Part shown: positions 12,020 through 40,952 of the stretch, piece after piece
Numbering within the stretch: position 1 is the stretch's first letter
Layout of the letters: every line of letters starts with the position of its first letter
IMG/VR virus record: IMGVR_UViG_3300010883_000089
Coordinates: 1-43,249 of that record
From: a virus
Strand: one strand, 5' to 3'
DNA length: 43,249 nucleotides
Notes under the pieces: generated by a model
Told to the model about the DNA's origin: nothing
Databases searched by the model: none
The model's input: only the letters and a program-made list of their open reading frames with translations
Program-made: the position numbers and the translations under genes

Positions 12020-13219
12020 ATGACGATTGCACCCCTATTCCAAGTACTGGATAGTAAGAAAGATTGTGTGGGCTATTTTACCGACAACATGATTAATGGT
12101 TCGAGCGCGCCACCACTGGCTGGTGCAACCTGGGATTATTCGAGCCATCTACCCGGCGAGTCCTATGAGCTAGCGCGCCTTTTTTGTGGGGGCGCCTCTC
12201 TCACCGAAGTGTGCCCCGATGAATTGAAGGAAGAATGGGCCCAGATCAAGTCGCGACTCAAGGCGTGTCTTAGGGCCTTTAATACCGCGCATCTATCTTT
12301 AGATTATAACTGTCTCTATGACGTGATCCCGGAATATTTTCTTTTTCGGTATTTGGATACCAAGAATAAGATCACGCGTCACGTTCTCGACACCTATCCT
12401 CGCCCCCCCAACTATCAACTTATGTATAACTTGGTGGAAATGCTGTCAGTGATCGGGAGCAACGAGTTACTTCTGGATATCCGCCCCATTCAGCATTTGC
12501 TGGGATCGGTACGGGGAAAGAATTTTCTTCGCACCCTCCAAACAGTTCGGCCGGTTTGTGACTACAACGCGTGGGGGACCGTTACTGGGCGCCTGTCCAC
12601 CAACCCCAACACCTTTCCTATTCTTACCATGAGTAAAGATTTTCGAGCCTGTATTAGGCCTACGAACGACTGGTTAGTGGAGCTTGATTTTAATGCCGCA
12701 GAGCTGAGGGTACTCCTCGCACTTGCCGGTGTTGAGCAGCCCAAGAATGACATTCATAACTGGAATGTTAAGAACATTTTCGACGACAACCTGACTCGCG
12801 AAGAGGCTAAGGTGAAGACCTTCGCGTGGTTGTATTCTAGTAAGGAAAACAAGCAGTTAGAGAGTCTTTATAACAAGGATTTAGTGAGAAATAAGTACTG
12901 GGATGGCTGTAAAATTGAGACAGATTATGGTAGAATAATAGAGAACGTAGACGAGCATCATGCTCTCAACTACATCGTTCAAAGCACCACAATTGACATG
13001 GTGCATGAACAGGCTTATAAAGTCTACGAGCTTTTGAAGGGGAGAAAGAGCCACATCGCATTTCTTATTCACGACGCAGTGTATATCGACCTCGCAGCAG
13101 AAGATCGATATGAATTAGTGAATTTGCTTGACACGTTCAGGAAAACACGGTATGATATGTTCAAGGTTAACGTCTCCGCTGGAAAGAACCTCGGAGATAT
13201 GAAGGAACTAAAGTTATGA
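12020..13219 (+). CDS. Family A DNA polymerase core (no exonuclease domains)
   Basis: 399 residues. Polymerase I-type motifs are present: TGRLSTNPNTFPIL before the palm, motif A as DFNAAELR (D223, E228), motif B as REEAKVKTFAWLY (R260, K264, F268, Y272), and motif C as LIHDAVYID (H351, D352). The usual motif C Glu after the Asp is Ala here, but the catalytic Asp residues remain. There is no room for 3'-5' or 5'-3' exonuclease domains; a separate FEN-type exonuclease is encoded at 19782. The first 170 residues are not recognisable as a standard domain. It opens an operon with a predicted leaderless start, and the next gene overlaps by ATGA. A DnaE polymerase at 26793 is also present, so the division of labour is unclear. 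Confidence 0.88.
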   Translation: MTIAPLFQVLDSKKDCVGYFTDNMINGSSAPPLAGATWDYSSHLPGESYELARLFCGGASLTEVCPDELKEEWAQIKSRLKACLRAFNTAHLSLDYNCLYDVIPEYFLFRYLDTKNKITRHVLDTYPRPPNYQLMYNLVEMLSVIGSNELLLDIRPIQHLLGSVRGKNFLRTLQTVRPVCDYNAWGTVTGRLSTNPNTFPILTMSKDFRACIRPTNDWLVELDFNAAELRVLLALAGVEQPKNDIHNWNVKNIFDDNLTREEAKVKTFAWLYSSKENKQLESLYNKDLVRNKYWDGCKIETDYGRIIENVDEHHALNYIVQSTTIDMVHEQAYKVYELLKGRKSHIAFLIHDAVYIDLAAEDRYELVNLLDTFRKTRYDMFKVNVSAGKNLGDMKELKL

Positions 13220-13446
13220 ATGAAAGGGAAAAAATGCAACACGCAGAACTAGACAGAATCAAGAGGATGCTGTTAGAAAACCCCGAGAAGCTAGGTCCCG
13301 ATGGCGCCCAGCGCCGAGCAACCCTTAAGTGGCTTGACGACGAAGTCGCCATCGCCGAGAACTTCGAGGTCATCGACGGCCGCGGCAATCTTGATCTCGA
13401 TGATCCAAGGCTTCGCAACCGCTCCCACCTAAAGGTTGTAAAGTGA
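13216..13446 (+). CDS. Small hypothetical protein
   Basis: 76 residues, charged and mostly helical, with a C-terminus containing DLDDPRLRNRSH. No family recognised. ATGA overlap with the polymerase gene and GTGA overlap with the next gene place it firmly in the operon, so it is very likely translated. Confidence 0.7.
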   Translation: MNEREKMQHAELDRIKRMLLENPEKLGPDGAQRRATLKWLDDEVAIAENFEVIDGRGNLDLDDPRLRNRSHLKVVK

Positions 13447-13760
13447 AGAAGATTTATCAAAAGTTAGTCCGGGATCGTATTCCCGAGATCATTGAGAAGG
13501 ACGGCAAAGACTACCAGATAAGTCAGCTACGCGGTGACGACCTGACACGGTTTGCTCTTAAGAAGCTTCGTGAAGAGGTCCAGGAATTTGTTGAGAATCC
13601 TTGCGCCGAAGAGGCGGCAGATATAGAGGAGATTCTACAGTTTGTATGTGGGAGGCTCTCTATAGGACCAACAGCCATAAGGGCTCAGCGTTTGTCAAAG
13701 TGCGCCACTCGTGGGAGCTTTGATATGGGGTTCCTTTTGGAGTGGGTTGAAGAAGAATGA
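13443..13760 (+). CDS. MazG/PRA-PH-like NTP pyrophosphohydrolase
   Basis: 105 residues. It begins with the characteristic YQKLVRDRIPEII of the all-alpha NTP pyrophosphatase superfamily. The metal-binding pattern is visible as LREEVQEF followed after a short gap by EEAADIEEI (ExxE...ExxD type). Members hydrolyse nucleoside triphosphates to monophosphate and pyrophosphate, often to clean damaged nucleotides or shift pools. The C-terminal 35 residues are less typical. GTG start overlaps the previous stop (GTGA), and the next gene starts by ATGA. The substrate cannot be read from the sequence. Confidence 0.75.
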   Translation: MKKIYQKLVRDRIPEIIEKDGKDYQISQLRGDDLTRFALKKLREEVQEFVENPCAEEAADIEEILQFVCGRLSIGPTAIRAQRLSKCATRGSFDMGFLLEWVEEE

Positions 13761-14608
13761 TAGTGGTTGGCTTAGGGAAAGCCGGCTGCAACATAGCGCG
13801 GGTGTTTAAAAAATTCCCTCAGTACGAAACGTATGGAATTGATGTTACCACAGAGGCCGACATCACCATCAGAAAACGCGCGACTCATGAGGAGTATGAG
13901 AAGCATTTCCCTTCGCTCAAAAAAAAATTGAAGTTCTCAAAGAAAGAGGTGACTGTTATTATTGGAGGCAGTGGTGCCATATCCGGCGCTAGCCTCCGAC
14001 TGTTGGAGCAGCTTCAAGATAATAACCTCTCGGTTATTTACATTCAGCCGGATCTTGACCTTCTCAGTGAAGTTCAGACCATGCAGGAACGAATTGTAAA
14101 GAATGTGTTGCAAGAGTATGCGCGGTCAGGACTTCTGGAAGTGATTTATTTAATTAATAATGGGCTCGTGGAGCAAGGAGTGGGCGAGGTACCAATCCTT
14201 GGTTATGCCGACGTTCTTAATCAAGCTATCGTTAATACCTTGCACATGATTAATGTTTTTAAAAACTCAGAATCGGTAGCGGGCAACTTCACACGCCCCT
14301 CCCCTCTGAGTCGCATCGCGACGATCGGCGTTATGGATGTCGAAGAAGAAAAAGAAAAATGGTTTTATGACTTGACTAATGCACGTGACGTGGTATACTA
14401 CTATGGTATCAATGAAGAAGACCTAAAGGAAGATGGTACGTTGTTCCGTAAAATAGTCAACTATGTTAAGAAGCAGCTAAACGAGGGAGTTAATATTTCG
14501 TATGGCATCTTTAAAACAACCTACGACCAAAAATATTGTTATTGCATTAAGTATTCATCTGTGGTACAATCATATAAAGAACTACTAGACGATCAGGATA
14601 TTGGCTGA
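13757..14608 (+). CDS. Divergent tubulin/FtsZ-like protein
   Basis: 283 residues. The N-terminus IVVGLGKAGCNIARVF matches the first nucleotide-binding loop of FtsZ (GxGGxGxN). GGSGAISGAS at 70-79 stands where FtsZ and tubulin have GGGTGTG. It is followed by a strand (LSVIYIQPD), a helix, a second strand with IYLINNGLVEQ (compare the IPNDxLL of FtsZ) and a helix ILGYADVLNQAIVNTLHMIN (compare the helix before the T7 loop). The T7 catalytic motif NxDxxD is not visible; the region reads FTRPSPLSRI. So the nucleotide fold looks kept while GTP hydrolysis may be lost. It overlaps the NTP pyrophosphohydrolase gene (ATGA) and precedes gp32. Phage tubulins such as PhuZ and TubZ build filaments, but this one is much shorter and its role is unknown. 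Confidence 0.6.
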   Translation: MIVVGLGKAGCNIARVFKKFPQYETYGIDVTTEADITIRKRATHEEYEKHFPSLKKKLKFSKKEVTVIIGGSGAISGASLRLLEQLQDNNLSVIYIQPDLDLLSEVQTMQERIVKNVLQEYARSGLLEVIYLINNGLVEQGVGEVPILGYADVLNQAIVNTLHMINVFKNSESVAGNFTRPSPLSRIATIGVMDVEEEKEKWFYDLTNARDVVYYYGINEEDLKEDGTLFRKIVNYVKKQLNEGVNISYGIFKTTYDQKYCYCIKYSSVVQSYKELLDDQDIG

Positions 14609-14640: not shown

Positions 14641-15411
14641 ATGGGTATCAATTTAGATAAGATGAGAGAAAAGCTCTCGTCACTACGTGGAGACGGTAAC
14701 TCAAATGACACATTCTGGCGTCCTGATGACGGCGACCAGACTATTCGGATCGTTCCGACGGCAGACGGCGATCCCTTCAAGGAGATGTGGTTTCATTACA
14801 ACATCGAGAAGGGCGGTTTCCTCTGCCCCAAGCGTAACTACAGTGACGAGTGTCCTGTATGTGAGTTCGCCTCACAGCTTTGGCGCGAGGGAGTCGATAA
14901 CAACGACGACCACAGTAAGAAGACTGCAAAGTCTCTCTTCGTACGACAGCGCTTCTTCAGCCCCGTGATGGTCCGCGGTGAGGAAGAGAAGGGTGTGCGT
15001 GTATGGGGCTATGGTAAGACCGCTTATGAGAATCTTCTGACTCTCGTGCTGAATCCGGAGTATGGTGATATCACCGACACCGAGACTGGTACAGATCTCA
15101 CGATGACCTACGGAAAGCCACCCGGTGCGTCTTTCCCGCAGACGAAGCTCGTACCTCGTCGACGGTCTTCCCCGCTCTGCGAGGAAATGACCCCCGACAA
15201 GTGCGTAGAGCTTCTCGATAGCATTCCAGAGTTTTCTGGCTTGTTTGAACGAAAGACAACCGATGATGTTCAGACCATTCTGGACACCTTTGTTAATTCT
15301 CAGGTCGAAGATCCCGAGACGGTGAGTAGCGAAACCGAGAAGTATGGGAAGACTGCGGACGGCGAAGCCAACGCCGTCGACGCTGCTTTCGCCGAGCTTG
15401 GCGCTCTTTAA
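14641..15411 (+). CDS. 32: gp32-like single-stranded DNA-binding protein
   Basis: 256 residues. The core contains WRPDDGDQTIRIVP, MWFHYN and a zinc site made of H52, C62, C71 and C74, with the same His-Cys-Cys-Cys layout as T4 gp32. The C-terminal 60 residues are acidic (EDPETVSSETEKYG) and end in a short hydrophobic tail, FAELGAL; in T4 the acidic tail contacts replication and recombination partners. It coats single-stranded DNA during replication, recombination and repair. Start ATG follows AAGGAG at 8 bases. It is close to the polymerase operon and UvsX, as expected. The repeated hairpin begins 16 bases after its stop codon. Confidence 0.93.
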   Translation: MGINLDKMREKLSSLRGDGNSNDTFWRPDDGDQTIRIVPTADGDPFKEMWFHYNIEKGGFLCPKRNYSDECPVCEFASQLWREGVDNNDDHSKKTAKSLFVRQRFFSPVMVRGEEEKGVRVWGYGKTAYENLLTLVLNPEYGDITDTETGTDLTMTYGKPPGASFPQTKLVPRRRSSPLCEEMTPDKCVELLDSIPEFSGLFERKTTDDVQTILDTFVNSQVEDPETVSSETEKYGKTADGEANAVDAAFAELGAL

Positions 15412-16507: not shown

Positions 16508-16669
16508 ATGTCTTTTTTGATTTTGGTTATTCTCGCTGCCCTCGGGCTATATGTAATGGACCTGCGTCGTCAGATAGATGAAGTGGGCGAAGAGGTGTCG
16601 CAAATGCACAAAGATTTTTTGGCAGAAGTTTATCTGAGGTATGGAGGTCCCGCCGATGGCCAAGAGTAA
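16508..16669 (+). CDS. Small single-pass membrane protein
   Basis: 53 residues. An N-terminal hydrophobic segment, SFLILVILAALGLYVM, is followed by a charged helix (DLRRQIDEVGEEVSQMHKDF) and a short tail. The ATG at 16508 is preferred over one at 16463, which lies inside the previous gene and lacks a ribosome site. The end of this frame overlaps the start region of UvsX, so the two are probably co-translated. A membrane helix plus cytoplasmic coil fits many small phage membrane proteins; no function is assigned. Confidence 0.55.
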   Translation: MSFLILVILAALGLYVMDLRRQIDEVGEEVSQMHKDFLAEVYLRYGGPADGQE

Positions 16670-17777
16670 ATCCAAAGTAGGTAAGATTTCTATTGATGGC
16701 CTGCGCACCTTGATTAATAAAACATCAGGACTTGAAGTGGCGCACAATCTTAATGAAGCAAACCCCACAGAAGTAAAAGAGTGGATTCCCACTGGATCTC
16801 GCTGGTTGGATTCTATTGTTTGCCGGGGACAGCTAGGTGGTATTCCTGTTGGGAAGTTCACAGAGATTGCTGGCCTTGAATCTACTGGCAAATCATTTAT
16901 GGCCGCGCAGATTGCTGGCAATGCCCAGAAGATGGGGATGACCGTTATTTATATGGATTCTGAGTCAGCAATTGACCCGGGCTTTCTTGAACGAGCTGGC
17001 TGTGACATAGATGAGCTTATCTACGTCCAGGCACAATCCGTTGAGCATGTTCTAGAAACCATTGAAAACGTTTTGAAGTCCGGAGCAGAAAGAACTCTGT
17101 TTATCTGGGACTCCCTGGCAATGACTCCGACCATTACAGATGTGGAGGGAGACTTCAACCCTCAATCTACGATGGCCATGAAAGCACGCATTCTCTCAAA
17201 GGGAATGTCTAAACTAACCATCCCGATTGCGAATACAAAGTCAGCCTTCCTGGTTCTTAACCAGTTGAAGACCAATATTCCACAGGGCCCCAACGCACGC
17301 ATCGTCGCAATGACGACACCCTTTATTACTCCAGGCGGGAAGGCCATGCACTATGTGTATTCCCTACGCGTCTGGCTGACGGGGCGTAAGGCAAAGTCTG
17401 CCTTCATCGAGGACGAGAGTGGTTTCCGCATTGGTTCTGAGGTAAAGGTCAAACTTGAGAAGTCTCGCTTCGGCACGCAGGGACGTAACTGTGCCTTTAA
17501 AATTTTATGGGGAACCGACAAGGTTGGCATACAGGACCAAGAGAGTTGGTTGGAAGCAATCAAGGGCTCCGACAATCTGAAGCAAGCCGGCGCCTGGTTC
17601 TCCCTGGTCTATAAGGATGAAACCGAAGAGAAGTTCCAGAGTGCCCACTGGATTGAAAAGCTTAAGGGCAAGAAGTTCAAAACCCGGGTCCTTGAGATCA
17701 TGGATGAACAGATCATTCGTAAGTTTGACACCCGCGAGGGAAGCGCTGAGGATTTCTACGACGTAGATAAAGAATAA
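16656..17777 (+). CDS. uvsX: UvsX/RecA-like recombinase
   Basis: 373 residues. Walker A is GLESTGKS (73-80), with the RecA-type hydrophobic strands LFIWDSLAM (Walker B) and AFLVLNQLKTNI following. GGKAMHYVYSLRVWLTG is the usual RecA/UvsX segment after the DNA-binding loops. The enzyme polymerises on single-stranded DNA and catalyses strand exchange, driving recombination-dependent replication and repair with gp32. An upstream in-frame ATG at 16641 overlaps the ribosome site itself; ATG at 16656 lies 8 bases after GGAGG and is preferred. A candidate late promoter follows the stop. Confidence 0.9.
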   Translation: MAKSKSKVGKISIDGLRTLINKTSGLEVAHNLNEANPTEVKEWIPTGSRWLDSIVCRGQLGGIPVGKFTEIAGLESTGKSFMAAQIAGNAQKMGMTVIYMDSESAIDPGFLERAGCDIDELIYVQAQSVEHVLETIENVLKSGAERTLFIWDSLAMTPTITDVEGDFNPQSTMAMKARILSKGMSKLTIPIANTKSAFLVLNQLKTNIPQGPNARIVAMTTPFITPGGKAMHYVYSLRVWLTGRKAKSAFIEDESGFRIGSEVKVKLEKSRFGTQGRNCAFKILWGTDKVGIQDQESWLEAIKGSDNLKQAGAWFSLVYKDETEEKFQSAHWIEKLKGKKFKTRVLEIMDEQIIRKFDTREGSAEDFYDVDKE

Positions 17778-25949: not shown

Positions 25950-26796
25950 GAAGCTGAACATGCCTGCCATTATACCCGTGGCTGGGATGTCAACCGAACT
26001 AGGGATGGAGTGGGATGCCTCCTTAGTGCCAGTGGCGCCCAACTATACAGCATTAGAGGCCACCGTCTATGAGTGTTTGCATGCCGGCTGCACTTCTATC
26101 TGGATTGTGGCGAACGACGATGTAGCCCCCCTCCTACGCTACCGGCTTGGTGAGATCGCCACGGACATAGACAGTATTCAACGGGGAACGTTTGTTAAGT
26201 TTGGACAGACCAGACACATAGAGGTTCCCATTTATTATGTTCCCATTCATCCTAAACATAGAGAGAAGGTAGACAATTATGCGTGGTCTGTTATTTATGG
26301 CGCCAATGTGGCATACTGGATACAAGCACAGTTTTCGCGATGGTCCCAGCCGGATCGGTACTACATATCTTTTCCTATGGGGATGATGGATCCCAAAGAA
26401 GTATTAGAGTACCGATCTAAACTACGTAAGGGCCCCCCTTTTTATTTCTCACACAATGGAAAAACAGTGAAGGATGGCTTGCCACTAAGCTTTGTTATCG
26501 ATCCTGAGGAGTGGCGCCGCGCCAAAAGAACTATTACGACGAACGCCTCATATTACAGAGCACCTCCGCCCGGTGAAATGCCCTCTGAAGCACTGCCCCC
26601 CGAAGAGAGATATGTGTCTTTACGCTATAATCTCGAAGATGTTTTTGGCGATGGGCCAGAGGGCACCCATCAAGAAATGAAATGTTTTTATGACTTGACA
26701 TCATGGGCTGGCTATGTTAAATTTATATCATCGGAACTTGGTAAGAAAACCAAACGTCCGAACACAAACACTATGTATAGAGGGAGAAACAAGTGA
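25942..26796 (+). CDS. Nucleotidyltransferase-like (GT-A fold) protein
   Basis: 284 residues. The start MPAIIPVAGMSTELGMEWDASLVPV, then ALEATVYECLHAGCTSIWIV, follows the beta-alpha-beta plan of sugar-nucleotide pyrophosphorylases (IPAAG..., main helix, then AGI-type strand). The usual GTRM loop is replaced, so catalytic activity is uncertain. The rest (PIYYVPIH, YYISFPMGMMDP) continues in the same style. Such enzymes make NDP-sugars; in a phage this could serve DNA or surface modification. It overlaps the previous gene and the GTG of DnaE. Alternative: a non-catalytic GT-A relative. Confidence 0.5.
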   Translation: MAKKLNMPAIIPVAGMSTELGMEWDASLVPVAPNYTALEATVYECLHAGCTSIWIVANDDVAPLLRYRLGEIATDIDSIQRGTFVKFGQTRHIEVPIYYVPIHPKHREKVDNYAWSVIYGANVAYWIQAQFSRWSQPDRYYISFPMGMMDPKEVLEYRSKLRKGPPFYFSHNGKTVKDGLPLSFVIDPEEWRRAKRTITTNASYYRAPPPGEMPSEALPPEERYVSLRYNLEDVFGDGPEGTHQEMKCFYDLTSWAGYVKFISSELGKKTKRPNTNTMYRGRNK

Positions 26797-29700
26797 ACGA
26801 GAAAAAGATTCCTTTCGTAGGCCTGCACGCACACAGCGTAGCGGGTTCTATTTTTGATGCCATCGGATATCCGGATGAGCATATGGATTTTTGCTATGAG
26901 AACGGGGGCGAAGCACTCGCTCTCACAGACCACGGGAACATGAATGGGTTTTCGCACCAGTTTTTACACTGGCAAAAGATGAAGTCCGAAGGAAAGGAAT
27001 TTAAGCCTATCTTTGGTGTAGAAGCATATTTCTTGCCTTCTATCGAAGAGTGGCGCCAGGACTATGATAGGATCAAGGAGGATAAGAAGCTCGCGAAATC
27101 ATTGGTGAAAGAGGGGGATACCTCTGGCGCCACAGTTGAGGACGAAGCAGCTTCAAAGAAAGCAATTAAGTCCGTTATTAATCGCCGGCGGCATCTCATT
27201 CTCCTGGCACAGAACCAGACTGGTCTCAACAATCTGTTCAAGCTAATATCAGCTTCATACAGAGAGGAGAACTTCTATCGCTACCCGCGTGTAGATTATA
27301 AGATGCTCGCAGAACACTCTGAAGGCGTCATCGCTGCATCGGCCTGCTTAGGCGGACCCTACGCTGGCAATTATTGGGAGAACCGCGAGGAGGGACCAGA
27401 GGCCGTGAGAGAGGCAATGAGGGAAACGACCCGTCGCTTCATGGAGGTCTTCGGTGACCGCTGGTATGGGGAACTTCAGTGGAATAACATTCTAGAACAA
27501 CATGAACTAAACCAGCACATTATTGAGGTGTGCAAGGAATTTGATGTTACATTAATTTCAACAGCGGACAGCCACTATCCTAACCGCGAAGCCTGGAAGG
27601 ACCGTGAGCTTTACAAGCGCCTAGGCTGGCTAGGCAAGGGAACCCCGGCGTGGGCGGAAGACAATACAGAACTGCCCCCTGGCGTAGAAGAGATCGGCTA
27701 CGAACTCTACCCGAAGAACGGCAACGAGATTTGGGAGTCATATAAGCAGTACTCTAAGAACCTAGGAATGGAATACGACGATGACTTGGTAATGAACTCT
27801 ATTACCGAAACACACAATATTGCATTCAATCGGATTGAGACCTTTGTCCCCGACACCAAGGTGAGGCTACCTGACTTTGTGGTTCCCGCAGGATTCACAG
27901 ATGCAGAAGCATTGGTGAACTATGCATTGGAAGGGTTACGCGATCGTGGCCTCCACGAGAACGAGGAATACACTACTCGCCTGCAGCAAGAATTAGATGT
28001 CATCGAGGACCGAGGATTTAGTAAGTACTTTCTCACCATGAAGGCAATTGCCGACAAGGCCAATGCGGTTCAGTTGACCGGCCCGGGCCGCGGCTCTGCT
28101 GCTGGTTCGCTAGCTGCGTATGTCCTGGGTATCACACAGATCGACCCCATCAAGTATGGGCTCCTCTTCGAGAGGTTCCTGCGCAAGGATGCGACAGACT
28201 ACCCTGACATCGACTATGATGTTGCGGAGCCCATGCAACTCAAGGAAATGCTTATGGAAGACTGGGGCAAGAACTCGGTCATCCCAATTTCAAACTGGAA
28301 CACGCTTCAGCTTAAGTCCTTGATCAAGGACATTTCAAAGTTCTATGGAGTTGAGTTCGGAGAAGTTAATAAAGTAACGTCGACGATGATTGCGGAGGCA
28401 ACCCCGGCTGCAAAGATGAAGCACGGGATCAAGGCCGGAGTGTACGCTCCGACCTGGGAAGAAGTTATGGAACTCTCCCCCTCCCTGCGCGGCTATCTAA
28501 TAAAGCATCCCCATATCAAGACACACGTTGAGGCGTTGGTGGGACAGGTTCGTTCCTGTTCCCGTCACGCGGGCGGCGTTTTGATTGCAGATGACTTGAA
28601 TGAGCATATGCCCATCATTAGTTCGGGCGGCGTGCGCCAGTCTCCGTGGGCGGAGGGACAGAACGTCCGGCACTTGGAGCCGCTTGGGTTTATTAAGTTT
28701 GATTTGTTGGGACTCTCGACACTTCGAATGATCGAGGGCGCAATCCGACACATCTTGAAGAGACACCATAACAACCCAGAACCTACGTTTAAGGATGTGA
28801 AAGAGTTCTATGACAAGAACCTTCATCCCGATGTCATCGACTTCGACGACGCGTCCGTGTATAGAAACATTTTTCAGCGAGCAAATTTCGCGGGAATTTT
28901 TCAGTTCACTGAACAGCGAGCACAGGAATTCTGCGCGAACGCAAAGCCGAAGTCACTGATTGATATCTCGGCCATCACATCGATCTATCGACCAGGACCA
29001 CTCTCAGCCAACGTGCACGAGCAATACATTCAAGCCAAGGCGAACGCAGGAGATATCGATTACATTAATGAGCATGTAAAGGACGTAACCAAGGAGACAT
29101 ATGGGTTCCTAATCTTTCAGGAGCAGATTGCTCTCCTTGCTCACAAGCTCGGGAAGGACATCTCTCTCGATGAGGGGAACATCCTTCGCAAGGTTCTCAC
29201 CAAGAAGGGAACAGGGAAGGAAGCCAGAGTTAAGAAGGTTCTCCGCACTAAGTTCATTGACGGGTGTGTAGAGAAGGGAATTCGCCACAGCGAAGCGGAG
29301 GATATGTGGGAGAGGTTTGAATACTTCTCGGGCTATGGCTTTAACAAGTCGCATGCCATTTCGTACTCGGCAATCTCGTTCCAATGCGCGTGGCTATATA
29401 ACTATTACCCCGTAGAATGGATGGCATCGTTCCTCGACAAGGAACCTGAGAAGCGCAAAGAGAAGGCAATCAACATCGCTAAGTCGAACGGCTTTGAGAT
29501 TGTGGAGGCAGACGTAAATACTTCATCGTTTGTGTGGGAGATCGATCCCAACAACGACAAACGTTTGGTGCAGCCACTGGCAGGGCTTAAGGGTCTAGGC
29601 GACGCTGCCATCGAACAAATTGTCGCGAACCGACCGTTCAATGATATTGAGGAGTTCCTCTTCCATGACGATATTGTGTACAGCAAGCTGAACAAGAAGG

Positions 29701-30233
29701 GGCTCGATGTGCTCGTTCGTTCGGGTGCCTTGCACAACCTGATGGACGAGCGCTTTAGTGGGCGCAAGCATTTTTGGTCTGCGGTAGCTGTGGATAGAGT
29801 TTATAGCAAGAAGAAGTTTCTGGAAAACATTGAGACCTACCGGGACGAAGGCGACTTCACTACAGAAGAAGAGATTGATAACCTTACGACGCTCACTGGC
29901 ATCTTCCCGATGCACTTAGTGATGACTGACTCCGTGCGGAACAAGCTCGACTCCTACTTCGTCCCTGCCATTTCTGATTATGACCCAGCATTGGGGCTCG
30001 TGTGGTTTATCCCTCGCGAGGTTATTAAAAAGAAAACGAAGCACGGCAAACCATATTGGATTGTTTCTGTAATAGATTCAAATTCAGTGTTGACAAAGTT
30101 CAGGTGTTGGGGTATAGTAGAAGGTAAGGATAGGATTCACTTGAACCACCCCTACATGGGACGCTTAGACTATGACGCTGCGTGGGGATTTTCAACGAGA
30201 TCGATTAGAAGAAATTTAAGAATATTGGGATGA
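26793..30233 (+). CDS. dnaE: DNA polymerase III alpha subunit (DnaE, family C)
   Basis: 1146 residues, close to the bacterial DnaE length. The PHP domain opens with HAHS (12-15) and ALTDHGN (43-49). The polymerase core has GPGRGSAAGS (430-439), the catalytic PDIDYD (D472, D474), SRHAGG near 590, FDLLGL (636-641) with the third catalytic Asp, and YGFNKSHAISYS in the fingers. A helix-hairpin-helix-like segment (LKGLGDAAIEQIV) follows; the final 100 residues could hold an OB-like domain. It would act as the main replicative polymerase. GTG start overlaps the previous stop (GTGA). Most T4-like phages use a family B enzyme, so this replacement is notable. Confidence 0.93.
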   Translation: MNEKKIPFVGLHAHSVAGSIFDAIGYPDEHMDFCYENGGEALALTDHGNMNGFSHQFLHWQKMKSEGKEFKPIFGVEAYFLPSIEEWRQDYDRIKEDKKLAKSLVKEGDTSGATVEDEAASKKAIKSVINRRRHLILLAQNQTGLNNLFKLISASYREENFYRYPRVDYKMLAEHSEGVIAASACLGGPYAGNYWENREEGPEAVREAMRETTRRFMEVFGDRWYGELQWNNILEQHELNQHIIEVCKEFDVTLISTADSHYPNREAWKDRELYKRLGWLGKGTPAWAEDNTELPPGVEEIGYELYPKNGNEIWESYKQYSKNLGMEYDDDLVMNSITETHNIAFNRIETFVPDTKVRLPDFVVPAGFTDAEALVNYALEGLRDRGLHENEEYTTRLQQELDVIEDRGFSKYFLTMKAIADKANAVQLTGPGRGSAAGSLAAYVLGITQIDPIKYGLLFERFLRKDATDYPDIDYDVAEPMQLKEMLMEDWGKNSVIPISNWNTLQLKSLIKDISKFYGVEFGEVNKVTSTMIAEATPAAKMKHGIKAGVYAPTWEEVMELSPSLRGYLIKHPHIKTHVEALVGQVRSCSRHAGGVLIADDLNEHMPIISSGGVRQSPWAEGQNVRHLEPLGFIKFDLLGLSTLRMIEGAIRHILKRHHNNPEPTFKDVKEFYDKNLHPDVIDFDDASVYRNIFQRANFAGIFQFTEQRAQEFCANAKPKSLIDISAITSIYRPGPLSANVHEQYIQAKANAGDIDYINEHVKDVTKETYGFLIFQEQIALLAHKLGKDISLDEGNILRKVLTKKGTGKEARVKKVLRTKFIDGCVEKGIRHSEAEDMWERFEYFSGYGFNKSHAISYSAISFQCAWLYNYYPVEWMASFLDKEPEKRKEKAINIAKSNGFEIVEADVNTSSFVWEIDPNNDKRLVQPLAGLKGLGDAAIEQIVANRPFNDIEEFLFHDDIVYSKLNKKGLDVLVRSGALHNLMDERFSGRKHFWSAVAVDRVYSKKKFLENIETYRDEGDFTTEEEIDNLTTLTGIFPMHLVMTDSVRNKLDSYFVPAISDYDPALGLVWFIPREVIKKKTKHGKPYWIVSVIDSNSVLTKFRCWGIVEGKDRIHLNHPYMGRLDYDAAWGFSTRSIRRNLRILG

Positions 30234-33456: not shown

Positions 33457-33701
33457 AAAAGCTGCGCAAGGTTGTCACCAAAAAAGGGAAGACAGCCAAG
33501 GTAATAAAAAAGCAACTGACCGACCAGGCCTCCCTCTTGATGAATGAGCCTACGGAGTGTTGCTTATGCAAGGCGCCCTTTGAAAGAACGCCCGCCACTG
33601 TTCAGAGTTGGCACGTTACGGTACTTCAGGAGAAGAAGGTAGTACGCCTCACTTGTCCTCAGTGTTGGAGCACGGTGAGCGAGGTCCTCCATGACACTTA
33701 A
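33453..33701 (+). CDS. Small zinc-finger-like protein
   Basis: 82 residues. A basic N-terminus (KKLRKVVTKKGKTAKVIKKQ) is followed by CCLC and CPQC about 30 residues apart, a likely zinc ribbon. Similar small proteins occur in marine T4-like phages; the function is unknown. GTG start overlaps the dUTPase stop (GTGA), and the end overlaps the next gene. Confidence 0.68.
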   Translation: MKKLRKVVTKKGKTAKVIKKQLTDQASLLMNEPTECCLCKAPFERTPATVQSWHVTVLQEKKVVRLTCPQCWSTVSEVLHDT

Positions 33702-34716
33702 GGAAGGCCTCGCCTATGACGATGTACTCTTGGTCCCGCAGTACTCTGATATTTTAAGTCGCCGAGAGGTGAATATCGCTAGCGCTTTTCACGGGCCTTA
33801 TGCCACTATCAAGCTGCACCTTCCAATCATTGCTAGCCCGATGGATACCATCACGGAAACCGAAATGGGGGTTGCGATGTGGAAAGCTGGAGGGTTGGGG
33901 GTTGTGCATCGATATAACTCTATTGAACATCAGTGTACCCTGGTAGACAAAGTCATTGTTGGAGCAAATGCTAATGTGGCAGCTGCTATCGGCACTTCGG
34001 GAGACTATTTAGATAGAGCGCGCGCCCTTGTTGGCGCCGGCGTTAGGATCTTATGTGTTGATGTGGCTCATGGCCACCACATTTTAATGAAAGAGGCGCT
34101 GGCAACCCTGCGGCAAGTGTTTGATGATGGCGTCCACATTATGGCGGGCAACATCGCAACCTTGGAGGGTTACAATGACTTGGTCGATTGGGGAGCCGAT
34201 AGTGTGCGTTGCAATATTGGCGGCGGTTCTATTTGTTCAACTAGGATCCAGACTGGCCACGGTGTCCCGGGCCTTCACACAATTATTGAGTGCGCGAGAT
34301 CGGACCGGAACGCTCCCATCATTGCTGACGGGGGAATCCGAAACGCGGGGGATATTGTCAAAGCTTTGGCAGCTGGGGCTGACTTCGTTATGCTTGGTTC
34401 TCTCTTGTCAGGTACTGATGAAACTCCTGGCGATGTAGTTTTTACTCACGACGGGAAGTTTAAGTCATACCGTGGAATGGCTAGCAAAGACGCCCAGATA
34501 GAGTGGCGCGGCAAGACTGCATCCCTGGAGGGAGTAGCTACCAGCGTACCGTGTAAAGGCCCCGTTGCGGACACCCTCGCCGAACTAGAGCGCGGCATTC
34601 GGAGCGGACTTTCGTACTCTGGTGCCCGAACGATAAGCGAGTTGCAGCAAAAGGCTCGCTTCATCCGACAGACGAGTAGTGGGCAGACCGAAAGCTCTCC
34701 CCATATTTTAAGATGA
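33691..34716 (+). CDS. guaB: IMP dehydrogenase/GMP reductase family enzyme without CBS domains
   Basis: 341 residues. Family motifs: [10 protein letters not shown] at the start, the catalytic loop GGGSICSTR (usual GPGSICTTR, with the active Cys), [17 protein letters not shown] for phosphate binding, and YRGMAS. CBS domains found in most IMP dehydrogenases are absent, so allosteric control by adenine or guanine nucleotides is probably missing. IMP dehydrogenase makes XMP for guanine nucleotides; GMP reductase does the reverse. The catalytic loop and the YRGM segment fit IMP dehydrogenase slightly better. The last 30 residues are a non-family tail. It overlaps both neighbours. Confidence 0.8.
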
Positions 34717-36262: not shown

Positions 36263-36667
36263 ATGTATGAGTTAACCACCCAGGACCTTGCAGTGTTTGT
36301 GGTGTTGGGATTTTGTTGTGGGGTGTTTGCTACCTATTACCTTGGGCGCCTGCTGGAGATTATCCATATGTGGCGCCTTCTGCGTCAGGTGATCGGCCAT
36401 CTTTTGTTGATGTGTCTTTCTATTGTGGAGAATATATCTTTTCTTAACACACTTAAGATTAAAGCAATGCATGAAGCAGACTTTAACGATAAACAAATTG
36501 CAGAGTTTGAAGAAGTGTGGGAACAGACCTTGACAAACTGGCAGGACTCAGCTATACTAACTATAATAAGTAAGGCGCCGCCACACTTTCGCACGATGAT
36601 GCCCTTTGATAATTGGTCCGGCGCCATGAAGTTCTTACAACAAGAGAGACGAGGCGACAATGATTAA
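36263..36667 (+). CDS. Membrane protein of unknown function
   Basis: 134 residues. Two hydrophobic stretches, VFVVLGFCCGVFATYYLG and VIGHLLLMCLSIVENI, are likely membrane helices in the first 60 residues. The rest is soluble and helical with FDNWSGAMKFLQQE at the end. RBS TTTGGAG is 8 bases before the ATG. It overlaps the ClpP gene by 8 bases, so both are probably translated together. Confidence 0.65.
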   Translation: MYELTTQDLAVFVVLGFCCGVFATYYLGRLLEIIHMWRLLRQVIGHLLLMCLSIVENISFLNTLKIKAMHEADFNDKQIAEFEEVWEQTLTNWQDSAILTIISKAPPHFRTMMPFDNWSGAMKFLQQERRGDND

Positions 36668-37280
36668 AGCAGAAGAAGAACAAGCGACGGAGGAAGAAGA
36701 GCAAGAAGGGGGAGTCCTGCCGCCCCCCGATGACGACGACCCCCCGGCCCTCCTGGGTTTGTGCGGGGACGTCAATGAAGAAACCCTACAGGATCTGTCG
36801 GCTGCTCTTATCGCTGCCAATCACAATAAGATTTTAAACATTGATGCGTCCGAGTTTGAAAACGATGAAGATATAGAATTCTTTATCTCTTCTAATGGAG
36901 GTTCCGTGGGAGATATGTTTGCCGTCTATGATCTGATGCGTATTGTTAAAAAGAATAGAGACATTCGGACATATGCCTTTGGTAAGGTGGCGTCTGCGGC
37001 TGTGGTTCTACTAGCTGCGGGGACGAAAGGGAAGAGGTTTATTTCTCAGAACACGCGCTTAATGATTCACCACTGTTCTGCAGCTGAGCAGGGCCCCGTA
37101 CCCAATTTGAAAACCGTCTACAAAGAGGCCCACAAGGTAGAGGAGATGATGATCCAGGCCCTGTCCGACAACTCTCATCTCAGCGTAGGAGAGATCTATA
37201 ATATCTTCTCCCGCAACACGGATGAATATTTCTCAGCTGATGAAGCCTTAGAAATGGGCTTTGTTGACGCGGTCGTCTAA
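36660..37280 (+). CDS. clpP: ClpP-type serine protease
   Basis: 206 residues. The catalytic triad is visible: S112 in GKVASAAVV, H137 in RLMIHH, and D188 in the NTDEYFSADEA segment. Oligomer-type ClpP features SSNGGSVGDM and ALEMGFVDAV are kept. The first 30 residues are an acidic, Pro-rich extension not found in bacterial ClpP. ClpP needs an ATPase partner (ClpX or ClpA) for protein breakdown; none is encoded here, so it might use host ATPases. ClpP-like folds also serve as prohead proteases in other phages, but a T4-type prohead protease is expected elsewhere in the genome. Confidence 0.9.
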   Translation: MIKAEEEQATEEEEQEGGVLPPPDDDDPPALLGLCGDVNEETLQDLSAALIAANHNKILNIDASEFENDEDIEFFISSNGGSVGDMFAVYDLMRIVKKNRDIRTYAFGKVASAAVVLLAAGTKGKRFISQNTRLMIHHCSAAEQGPVPNLKTVYKEAHKVEEMMIQALSDNSHLSVGEIYNIFSRNTDEYFSADEALEMGFVDAVV

Positions 37281-39380: not shown

Positions 39381-40952
39381 GTGCCCAAGTGTAAATTTGA
39401 GTCTCGTTCTAAACTAAATACCAAAGTACTTAATGGAATCAATACGCTAGCGGACAACGTCGCTGCTACGCTCGGCCCCAAGGGCCGCAACGTTCTTCTT
39501 CAAGAGAAGGGGAAGGACCCTTTCATCACCAAGGACGGTGTGACCGTCGCCGCGTTCATTCACCTCGAAGACGAGTTTGAAAATGCGGCAGCCCAGGTGC
39601 TCAAACAAGCTACGCAGGAGACCAATAATGCAGCCGGCGATGGAACCACTACGGCCACCGTTTTGGCGCGCGAACTAATGGTCAAGGCCCAGCGGTACAT
39701 CACTGCGGGGGCCTCACCGGTTGAAATCAAGCGTGGGATGGACTTGGCAGTAGATGAAATTGTTAATAATCTCAAGGAGATGGCTCAGCACATTGAAACG
39801 TTAGATGATGTTGAGAATATCGCCACCATTTCTGCCAACAATGATCGTACGATTGGTAAGTTAATTGCCACAGCAGTTGATAAAGCTGGTAAAGATGGTG
39901 CCATCACAATCGAGGAGTCCAAGACAGTTGATACTAGTCTTGATATCATTGAGGGATTCCGACTCGAAGCCGGCTACGCAGCCTCCGCTTTCATAACCGA
40001 CGAACGACGCGGCGCAGCCCACTATGATTCCCCTCTTATCCTCGTTACAGATGAAAAGATCGATACTGTTGATCAGATTTTGCCTGCCTTGGAATTGGTC
40101 GCCCGCGATGCTAGGCCCCTGGTTATCGTAGCGGAGGAGATTGAAGGCCAAGCATTGGCTGCGTTGATCATGAATACGGTTCGTGGCTCAATGAAGATTG
40201 TTGCCGTCAAAGCTCCTTTCTATGGAGAACGACGTCGTAATATTTTATCGGATCTAGCCATCTCCACCGGTGCCGAGTTTATATCTCGGGAGTCATCCAC
40301 GCGCCTCCGCGATCTCAAGCTGGCTCATTTTGGTCAGGCACGATCTGTCGACATCACTAAAATAACTACGACTGTCATCGGGGGTAAAGGCGACAATGCC
40401 GATATAGACAGACGCATCGAGACTCTTAAAGCAGAATTAAAAAATACGGAAGAGCTGCTAGAATGTGACAAAGTTCAAGAAAGGATTACTAAGTTAGCCT
40501 CAGGTGTTGCCGTGGTTAAGGTAGGTGCTGCCACCGAGGTGGAAATGATTGAGAAGAAACATCGTATTGAGGATGCTCTTGAAGCAGTAAAGTCTGCCCA
40601 GCAGGAAGGTATCCTTCCCGGAGGGGGCATTGCACTGCTACGCGCTAGCGACGGGATCAGCGCGCCAGTAGAGAACGAGGACCAACAGTTTGGGGTGGAT
40701 ATCGTCGTAGCCGCATGCGCAGCCCCCCTACGTCAGATGGCGAAGAACTGCGGTCTTTCTGAAGACTTGATCGAAGCTGAAATTCGAAAGTCCCCCAAAA
40801 ATTACGGACACAATTTTCGAGACTTTTGTGTGGTAGATATGTATGAGGCCGGAATTATTGATCCTTTGAAGGTAACGCGCACGGCTCTGCAAAATGCTGC
40901 ATCGGCCGCCGGCACTTTAATTACGACTTCGCATGCCATTATCGAAATATAG
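39381..40952 (+). CDS. groEL: GroEL chaperonin (60-kDa, phage-encoded)
   Basis: 523 residues. ATP-binding residues D52 (KDGVTVA) and D87 (GDGTTTATVLA) stand at the same numbers as in E. coli GroEL. The ATPase Asp of the VEDAL segment is kept (RIEDALEAVK). The C-terminal GGM tail is missing; the protein ends TSHAIIEI. Apical-domain hydrophobic residues are present but divergent. It should form a folding chamber, with the GroES-like protein at 24593 as possible lid. Phage GroELs are uncommon outside some large phages. It has its own promoter with perfect boxes. GTG start. Confidence 0.93.
   Translation: MPKCKFESRSKLNTKVLNGINTLADNVAATLGPKGRNVLLQEKGKDPFITKDGVTVAAFIHLEDEFENAAAQVLKQATQETNNAAGDGTTTATVLARELMVKAQRYITAGASPVEIKRGMDLAVDEIVNNLKEMAQHIETLDDVENIATISANNDRTIGKLIATAVDKAGKDGAITIEESKTVDTSLDIIEGFRLEAGYAASAFITDERRGAAHYDSPLILVTDEKIDTVDQILPALELVARDARPLVIVAEEIEGQALAALIMNTVRGSMKIVAVKAPFYGERRRNILSDLAISTGAEFISRESSTRLRDLKLAHFGQARSVDITKITTTVIGGKGDNADIDRRIETLKAELKNTEELLECDKVQERITKLASGVAVVKVGAATEVEMIEKKHRIEDALEAVKSAQQEGILPGGGIALLRASDGISAPVENEDQQFGVDIVVAACAAPLRQMAKNCGLSEDLIEAEIRKSPKNYGHNFRDFCVVDMYEAGIIDPLKVTRTALQNAASAAGTLITTSHAIIEI

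Follow-up and report, generated by a model that had tools for sequence, protein, structure and literature searches.

A predicted tubulin/FtsZ-fold protein lacking conserved T7 acids in the replication operon of an uncultured caudovirus lineage

Most known phage tubulins come from jumbo phages that form a nucleus or from plasmid-like phages, and they are thought to act via GTP-driven dynamics. A short gene within a viral replication module, which an earlier note had read from the sequence as tubulin/FtsZ-like with a degenerate catalytic loop, raises the question of how such a fold might be used by a phage. The gene is found in IMG/VR record IMGVR_UViG_3300010883_000089, the 43,249 nucleotides of which are hereafter called the window. 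It occupies positions 13757-14608 on the plus strand and is an ORF with an ATG start, encoding a 283-aa protein with the N-terminus MIVVGLGKAGCNIARVF. Both the ORF and the motif positions were as noted earlier, GLGKAGCN being residues 5-12 and GGSGAISGAS residues 70-79.

The tubulin-like gene belongs to a chain of overlapping plus-strand genes headed by a gene for a short family-A DNA polymerase-like protein (PolA-like; 12020-13219, 399 aa, phrog_17, E = 1.3e-17). The next member is a 76-aa ORF (13216-13446) that has a 4-nt overlap at either side and no family match. It is followed by a 105-aa ORF (13443-13760), which was named MazG-like (all-alpha NTP pyrophosphohydrolase-like) by eye from the pattern KLVRDRIPEII...EEVQEF...EEAADIEE and had no match in the family libraries. 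The start of the tubulin-like gene overlaps the end of the MazG-like ORF by 4 nt. As a 4-nt start/stop overlap is present at each junction from the PolA-like gene to the tubulin-like gene, a single coupled mRNA is likely. Downstream, a gene encoding a gp32-type ssDNA-binding protein (14641-15411, plus strand, phrog_1192, E = 1.7e-21) follows after a gap of 32 nt and has its own strong Shine-Dalgarno sequence (aaggagataaaaATG), and a UvsX/RecA recombinase gene (16641-17777, plus strand, phrog_97, E = 1.2e-55) is part of the same replication module. The placement described earlier, between polymerase-linked genes and gp32, was thus confirmed. The window contains two polymerases, the other being a DnaE-type Pol III alpha (26793-30233, 1146 aa), and the apparent motif C of the PolA-like protein is IHDA, not HDE.

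At the sequence level, the window protein was assigned to no Pfam family and had no match at the cut-off of PF00091, and only weak and unconvincing matches (E 0.02 or worse) were obtained from PHROGs and NCBIfam. When 40 family members were scanned singly, one matched Pfam Tubulin (E 0.011) and 13 matched TrkA_N (best E 8.8e-6), the latter presumably because of the GLGxAG (GxGxxG) loop. Searches of PDB by phmmer and by profile returned nothing significant, and no relative was detected by tblastn among 50,697 phage records (cultured phages) or when the family alignment was run against 84,980 species genomes in a pattern-based, non-exhaustive scan. With hhalign, PhuZ was the sole family above background (E 9.8e-6 and 1.6e-4). 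The alignment to FtsZ was at background (E about 0.06) and was not used as proof of homology because it was no better than those to unrelated null families. One match to a MazG-like null family (hhalign E 4e-21) was rejected as not representing real similarity; it was traced to the fusion in locus L276 alone, where the MazG-like ORF and tubulin are joined in frame (L276:779-1951, 391 aa), a single case and possibly a sequencing error.

Structure prediction was more informative with regard to the fold. The AlphaFold2 model of the window protein, built from a 59-sequence alignment, had a pLDDT of 90.8 and a pTM of 0.89, and a Foldseek search of PDB gave 644 matches when E was limited to 0.001. 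FtsZ and TubZ filled the first 50 places, the best match having an E of 2.1e-13, with TM of 0.59-0.70 by query length. The outcomes that would have spoken against the FtsZ-like fold claimed earlier were not seen: the tubulin GTPase domain was present in the model, and neither ThiF nor ParA ranked first among the Foldseek matches. A second homolog, L076, which is only 34% identical to the window protein, was modeled with a pLDDT of 91.2 and matched FtsZ, TubZ and one eukaryotic tubulin in PDB. Among viral models, the best match was A0A6J5RW92, an FtsZ-like protein from uncultured Caudovirales (TMq 0.74, 14% identity), and no close relative was present among the matches listed. The predictions thus give good support to a tubulin/FtsZ fold, and the modeled two-domain architecture (nucleotide domain, H7 and activation domain) places the protein within the tubulin/FtsZ superfamily. 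The TM of 0.6-0.7 with 4-6 A rmsd shows a distant relative rather than a close copy.

Residue conservation was examined over 200 homologs. The T1-like nucleotide loop GLGKAGCN (residues 5-12, 13769-13792) is highly conserved, with G5 in 99%, G7 in 100% and G10 in 98% of them. The T4-like loop GGSGAISG (residues 70-77, 13964-13987), which lies between strand 64-70 and helix 74-85 of the model, replaces GGGTGTG; G71 is kept in 96% of the homologs and S76 in 57 of the 59 sequences of the smaller alignment, and the signature GGGTG[ST]G is not present in its exact form. N135 (14159-14161), the T6-equivalent base-contact Asn, is 97% conserved and was aligned by hhalign with N165 of E. coli FtsZ. Helix H7, as defined by DSSP of the model (residues 150-169, 14204-14263), carries Y150, N155, H163, M164 and F168, and N155, which was aligned with FtsZ N186 at the start of H7, is 99% conserved. 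Residues conserved in at least 95% of the homologs include G5, G7, G10, D29, G71, R123, S124, N135, N155, H163 and M164. The mapping of N135, N155 and the loops comes from the profile alignment to FtsZ, which is not significant alone (E about 0.06), and the loop assignments are consistent with the predicted order of strands and helices. The residues expected to contact GTP are thus conserved, from which we infer GTP as the ligand.

In tubulins, the GTP of one subunit is hydrolyzed by the T7 acids of the next subunit; the beta-tubulin T7 that faces the alpha-tubulin N-site has no catalytic acid, and the GTP there is not hydrolyzed. The T7/H8-equivalent stretch of the window protein (residues 170-186, 14264-14314) contains no conserved acid and no H8, and ends with a conserved basic residue, R186, which is R or K in 197 of the 200 distinct homologs (99%). 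Acids occur at position 172 in 74% and at position 183 in 60% of these sequences and at every other position in at most 36%; in the window protein, position 183 is Pro. None of the FtsZ-type NxDxxD acids is conserved at residues 170-186. Helix H8 is absent from both AlphaFold2 models (the window protein and L076), and the stretch after H7 is, by our own count, approximately 4-5 residues shorter than its counterpart in E. coli FtsZ. As controls, the T7 D-x-x-D was kept in 10 of 10 PhuZ sequences and NxDFAD in all six of the eight FtsZ sequences that were readable by motif search. The loss of the catalytic acids is thus a property of the whole family, and the degenerate T7 loop noted earlier is confirmed beyond the window protein. 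By analogy with beta-tubulin T7, every subunit in this family would be of the non-hydrolyzing kind. For the catalytically inactive PhuZ mutant D190A, GTP was still needed and the filaments were stable and non-dynamic (PMC4244570). Given this precedent, GTP should remain bound to a protein in which the pocket is retained and the T7 acids are lost.

The C-terminal, activation-type domain (14315-14605) consists of a beta-sheet and two helices in the model and has a short acidic end, DDQDIG. The domain had been described as short, which is true of its end (approximately 12 residues past residue 271, with no long tail) and not of its fold, which is complete. Y214, T254, Y256 and Q271 in this domain are nearly invariant, and pLDDT is below 50 at residues 279-283. 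The extended acidic tail of PhuZ type, a long C-terminal tail that PhuZ uses for polymerization and filament assembly (PMC3678025), is absent from the window protein. A short acidic C-terminal motif, LDDQ[DE]I[GS] (14566-14605), is kept in the clade of the window protein and not in the divergent clades; it is possible that this end is a partner-binding tail.

The tubulin-like gene was identified at no fewer than 271 loci from a lineage of uncultured caudoviruses. A protein-anchored scan of IMG/VR gave 77 related loci, and the aligned full-length copies were 34-79% identical to the window protein. The median dN/dS of 0.067 indicates purifying selection. Gene order in these first 77 loci (a large protein, a 430-aa protein, PolA-like, an optional MazG-like ORF, tubulin, gp32 and UvsX) was nearly constant where sequence allows, with occasional inserted ORFs. 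A 4-nt overlap couples the tubulin-like gene to the polymerase or MazG-like gene, and the gap between tubulin and gp32 has a median of 48 nt. An ORF of approximately 320 aa is inserted between the two genes in L043 and L044, and a gap of similar size is present in L147. Using gp32 or PolA as independent anchors, we found tubulin in 269 loci, 12 further loci being short of upstream DNA and four lacking the gene; it was thus present in 269 of the 273 gp32 loci with enough upstream DNA, although 75 of the 269 had been fetched via tubulin itself and some share a contig, so that they do not represent independent genomes. In two of the four exceptions (L253 and L261), the upstream DNA extends for slightly more than 1 kb and is occupied by other genes, whereas the other two (L313 and L314, gp32 32% identical) look like true outgroups. 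The evolutionary distances of tubulin and gp32 were correlated (Spearman 0.58, 0 of 200 permutations).

In the outgroups and Flavobacterium phage immuto, the order is PolA, a short ORF, gp32 and RecA, the short ORF encoding an unrelated protein of approximately 140 aa that is also seen upstream of gp32 in Microcystis phage Mel-JY01. Proteins of approximately 130-150 aa, alike by eye and unrelated to tubulin, were observed at L313:2450-2876, L314:1886-2294, L115:1346-1801 and L114:5867-6256; upstream of gp32 in the outgroups and cultured phages, such a protein takes the place that tubulin has in the lineage studied here. No tubulin was found in the equivalent place of phages immuto and Mel-JY01 or of Bacillus phage SPO1. 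The simplest reading is that the ancestor of the lineage acquired the tubulin gene in this operon, where it subsequently became fixed. No second tubulin was detected in eight large relatives (76-194 kb), nor was a match to chimallin (phiKZ gp54), although these eight may be fragments and the chimallin search had no positive control.

Comparison with the known systems suggests where this family belongs. It shares with FtsZ the two-domain fold, the order of T1, T4, T6 and H7 and the best PDB matches (TM about 0.6-0.73). On the other hand, identity is only approximately 10-16%, GGGTGTG, the T7 acids and H8 are lacking, there is no C-terminal linker or peptide and no match to PF00091, and FtsZ is located in a division gene cluster whereas the tubulin-like gene is in a phage replication operon. 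PhuZ resembles it in being a phage-encoded tubulin fold of comparable size (about 315-330 aa vs 283 aa) and is the only family with above-background profile similarity; however, the T7 D-x-x-D and the long acidic tail are PhuZ features that were not found in this family, and PhuZ accompanies a nuclear shell whereas the gene described here sits in a PolA/gp32/UvsX operon. Bacillus TubZ structures were among the top fold matches, but the matched TubZ chains are longer (360-410 residues), and TubZ is an active protein that has a C-terminal tail and works with the partner TubR. FtsZl1 is a diverged family of the tubulin superfamily that has lost part of the canonical elements and whose filament formation is doubtful (PMC2875224); its T6-H7 region is not confidently recognizable and it carries a coiled coil (Makarova and Koonin, 2010, PMC2875224). 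Divergence, partial loss of canonical elements and doubtful filament formation are features common to FtsZl1 and the present family, which nevertheless keeps T6 and H7 (150-169, N155) and loses only T7-H8; the 283-aa protein is also too short for the coiled-coil C-terminal part. Because the T7 acids of FtsZ, the T7 acids and tail of PhuZ and the unrecognizable T6-H7 of FtsZl1 are all missing here, the proteins fall outside these three families, and they are best called a new family of the tubulin superfamily that is not a member of FtsZ, PhuZ or TubZ. A search of the openly accessible literature gave no earlier account of a family of this kind.

Several other genes of the window should be mentioned. 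An IMP dehydrogenase/GMP reductase-type enzyme (33691-34713, 341 aa; Pfam IMPDH E 1.8e-105, below the NCBIfam cut-offs) shows that the virus with the GTP-pocket protein also encodes an enzyme that acts on guanine nucleotides. A ClpP-like protease (36660-37280) is encoded near a full-length GroEL (39381-40952). The closest PDB entry to this phage GroEL is a reconstructed Fibrobacteres-Chlorobi-Bacteroidetes chaperonin, an affinity that may give a weak hint of the host. Tubulin has been reported to co-occur with HSP60 in jumbo phages (PMC7824862).

With respect to function, we tentatively favor, at somewhat less than an even chance, a GTP-held static scaffold or adaptor in phage replication that is built on a hydrolysis-deficient tubulin fold. 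The protein would bind GTP without hydrolyzing it by the usual T7-loop mechanism, would be produced together with the PolA-like protein and gp32, and would most likely serve the phage replication center as a scaffold or adaptor without dynamics, a static oligomer or filament tethering replicating DNA or the replisome. Ligand, lack of hydrolysis, assembly and replication role are all what we infer from the modeled fold, the absence of conserved T7 acids while N135 and N155 are kept at 97-99%, the fixed position next to gp32, the correlated gp32 distances, the dN/dS of 0.067 and the stable filaments of PhuZ D190A (PMC4244570). However, canonical protofilaments may not form in the absence of H8 and a PhuZ-type tail; operon position means co-expression and not a physical link; and the loop assignments lean on the non-significant FtsZ profile alignment (E about 0.06). 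The first of these points is also an argument for a monomeric GTP-binding switch or sensor, that is, a non-polymerizing adaptor that links the GTP level to replication or brings a partner protein to the polymerase or gp32, since T7/H8 is shortened and the long tail is lacking, and both are used in longitudinal contacts of FtsZ and PhuZ. We consider such a switch rather unlikely: the conserved pocket and the IMP dehydrogenase/GMP reductase-type enzyme, which implies that guanine nucleotides matter to this virus, agree with it, but nearly invariant residues also occur outside the pocket, both at the distal end of H7 (H163, M164 and F168) and in the C-terminal domain (Y214, T254, Y256 and Q271), a pattern that would be expected of a protein with several functional faces.

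The other possibilities are less probable. The earlier note had suggested positioning of replicating DNA or poisoning of host FtsZ; a replication role fits the fixed operon position, whereas fixation, slow evolution and location disfavor the poison. A decoy that copolymerizes with or caps FtsZ and blocks division would have the design expected of a capping subunit (FtsZ-like fold, nucleotide-side surface and no hydrolyzing T7 face), and targeting of FtsZ by small phage proteins is known (PMC11897509, PMC11762379). It seems improbable for a slowly evolving gene that is fixed in the lineage, sits in a replication operon and is co-inherited with gp32, considering also that known phage FtsZ inhibitors are small unrelated accessory proteins and that sequence similarity to FtsZ is at background. 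A PhuZ-like filament that is active and dynamic through another catalytic residue could account for the above-background hhalign to PhuZ (E 9.8e-6 and 1.6e-4) and the partly conserved acids at 172 (74%) and 183 (60%), but there is no family-wide T7 acid, the window protein has Pro183, the PhuZ tail is lacking and no chimallin homolog was seen in the eight large relatives (fragments, searched without a positive control), which makes such a filament quite improbable. Finally, the TrkA_N matches of 13 of 40 members (best E 8.8e-6, presumably via GLGxAG) might point to a Rossmann-type dinucleotide (NAD)-binding protein that merely resembles FtsZ. This is very improbable and largely refuted by the predicted fold, because the models of two proteins that share 34% identity both align with FtsZ/TubZ along their entire length, C-terminal domain included, no Rossmann dehydrogenase is among the top 50 fold matches, and the conserved T4 loop, N135 and N155 are not needed by Rossmann NAD sites.

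Without the T7 acids, this phage tubulin may well be static and not dynamic. The broader proposal, that a hydrolysis-dead tubulin has become a fixed replication-module protein building static, GTP-locked scaffolds that organize replication without a phage nucleus, is one we consider doubtful. A family that keeps the pocket without the hydrolysis machinery raises the question of what use a tubulin is without dynamics, as well as whether phages without a known nucleus organize their replication with a cytoskeletal scaffold. Pfam, PHROGs, NCBIfam and the genomes of cultured phages all fail to reveal this family, which therefore represents a testable extension of the tubulin superfamily.
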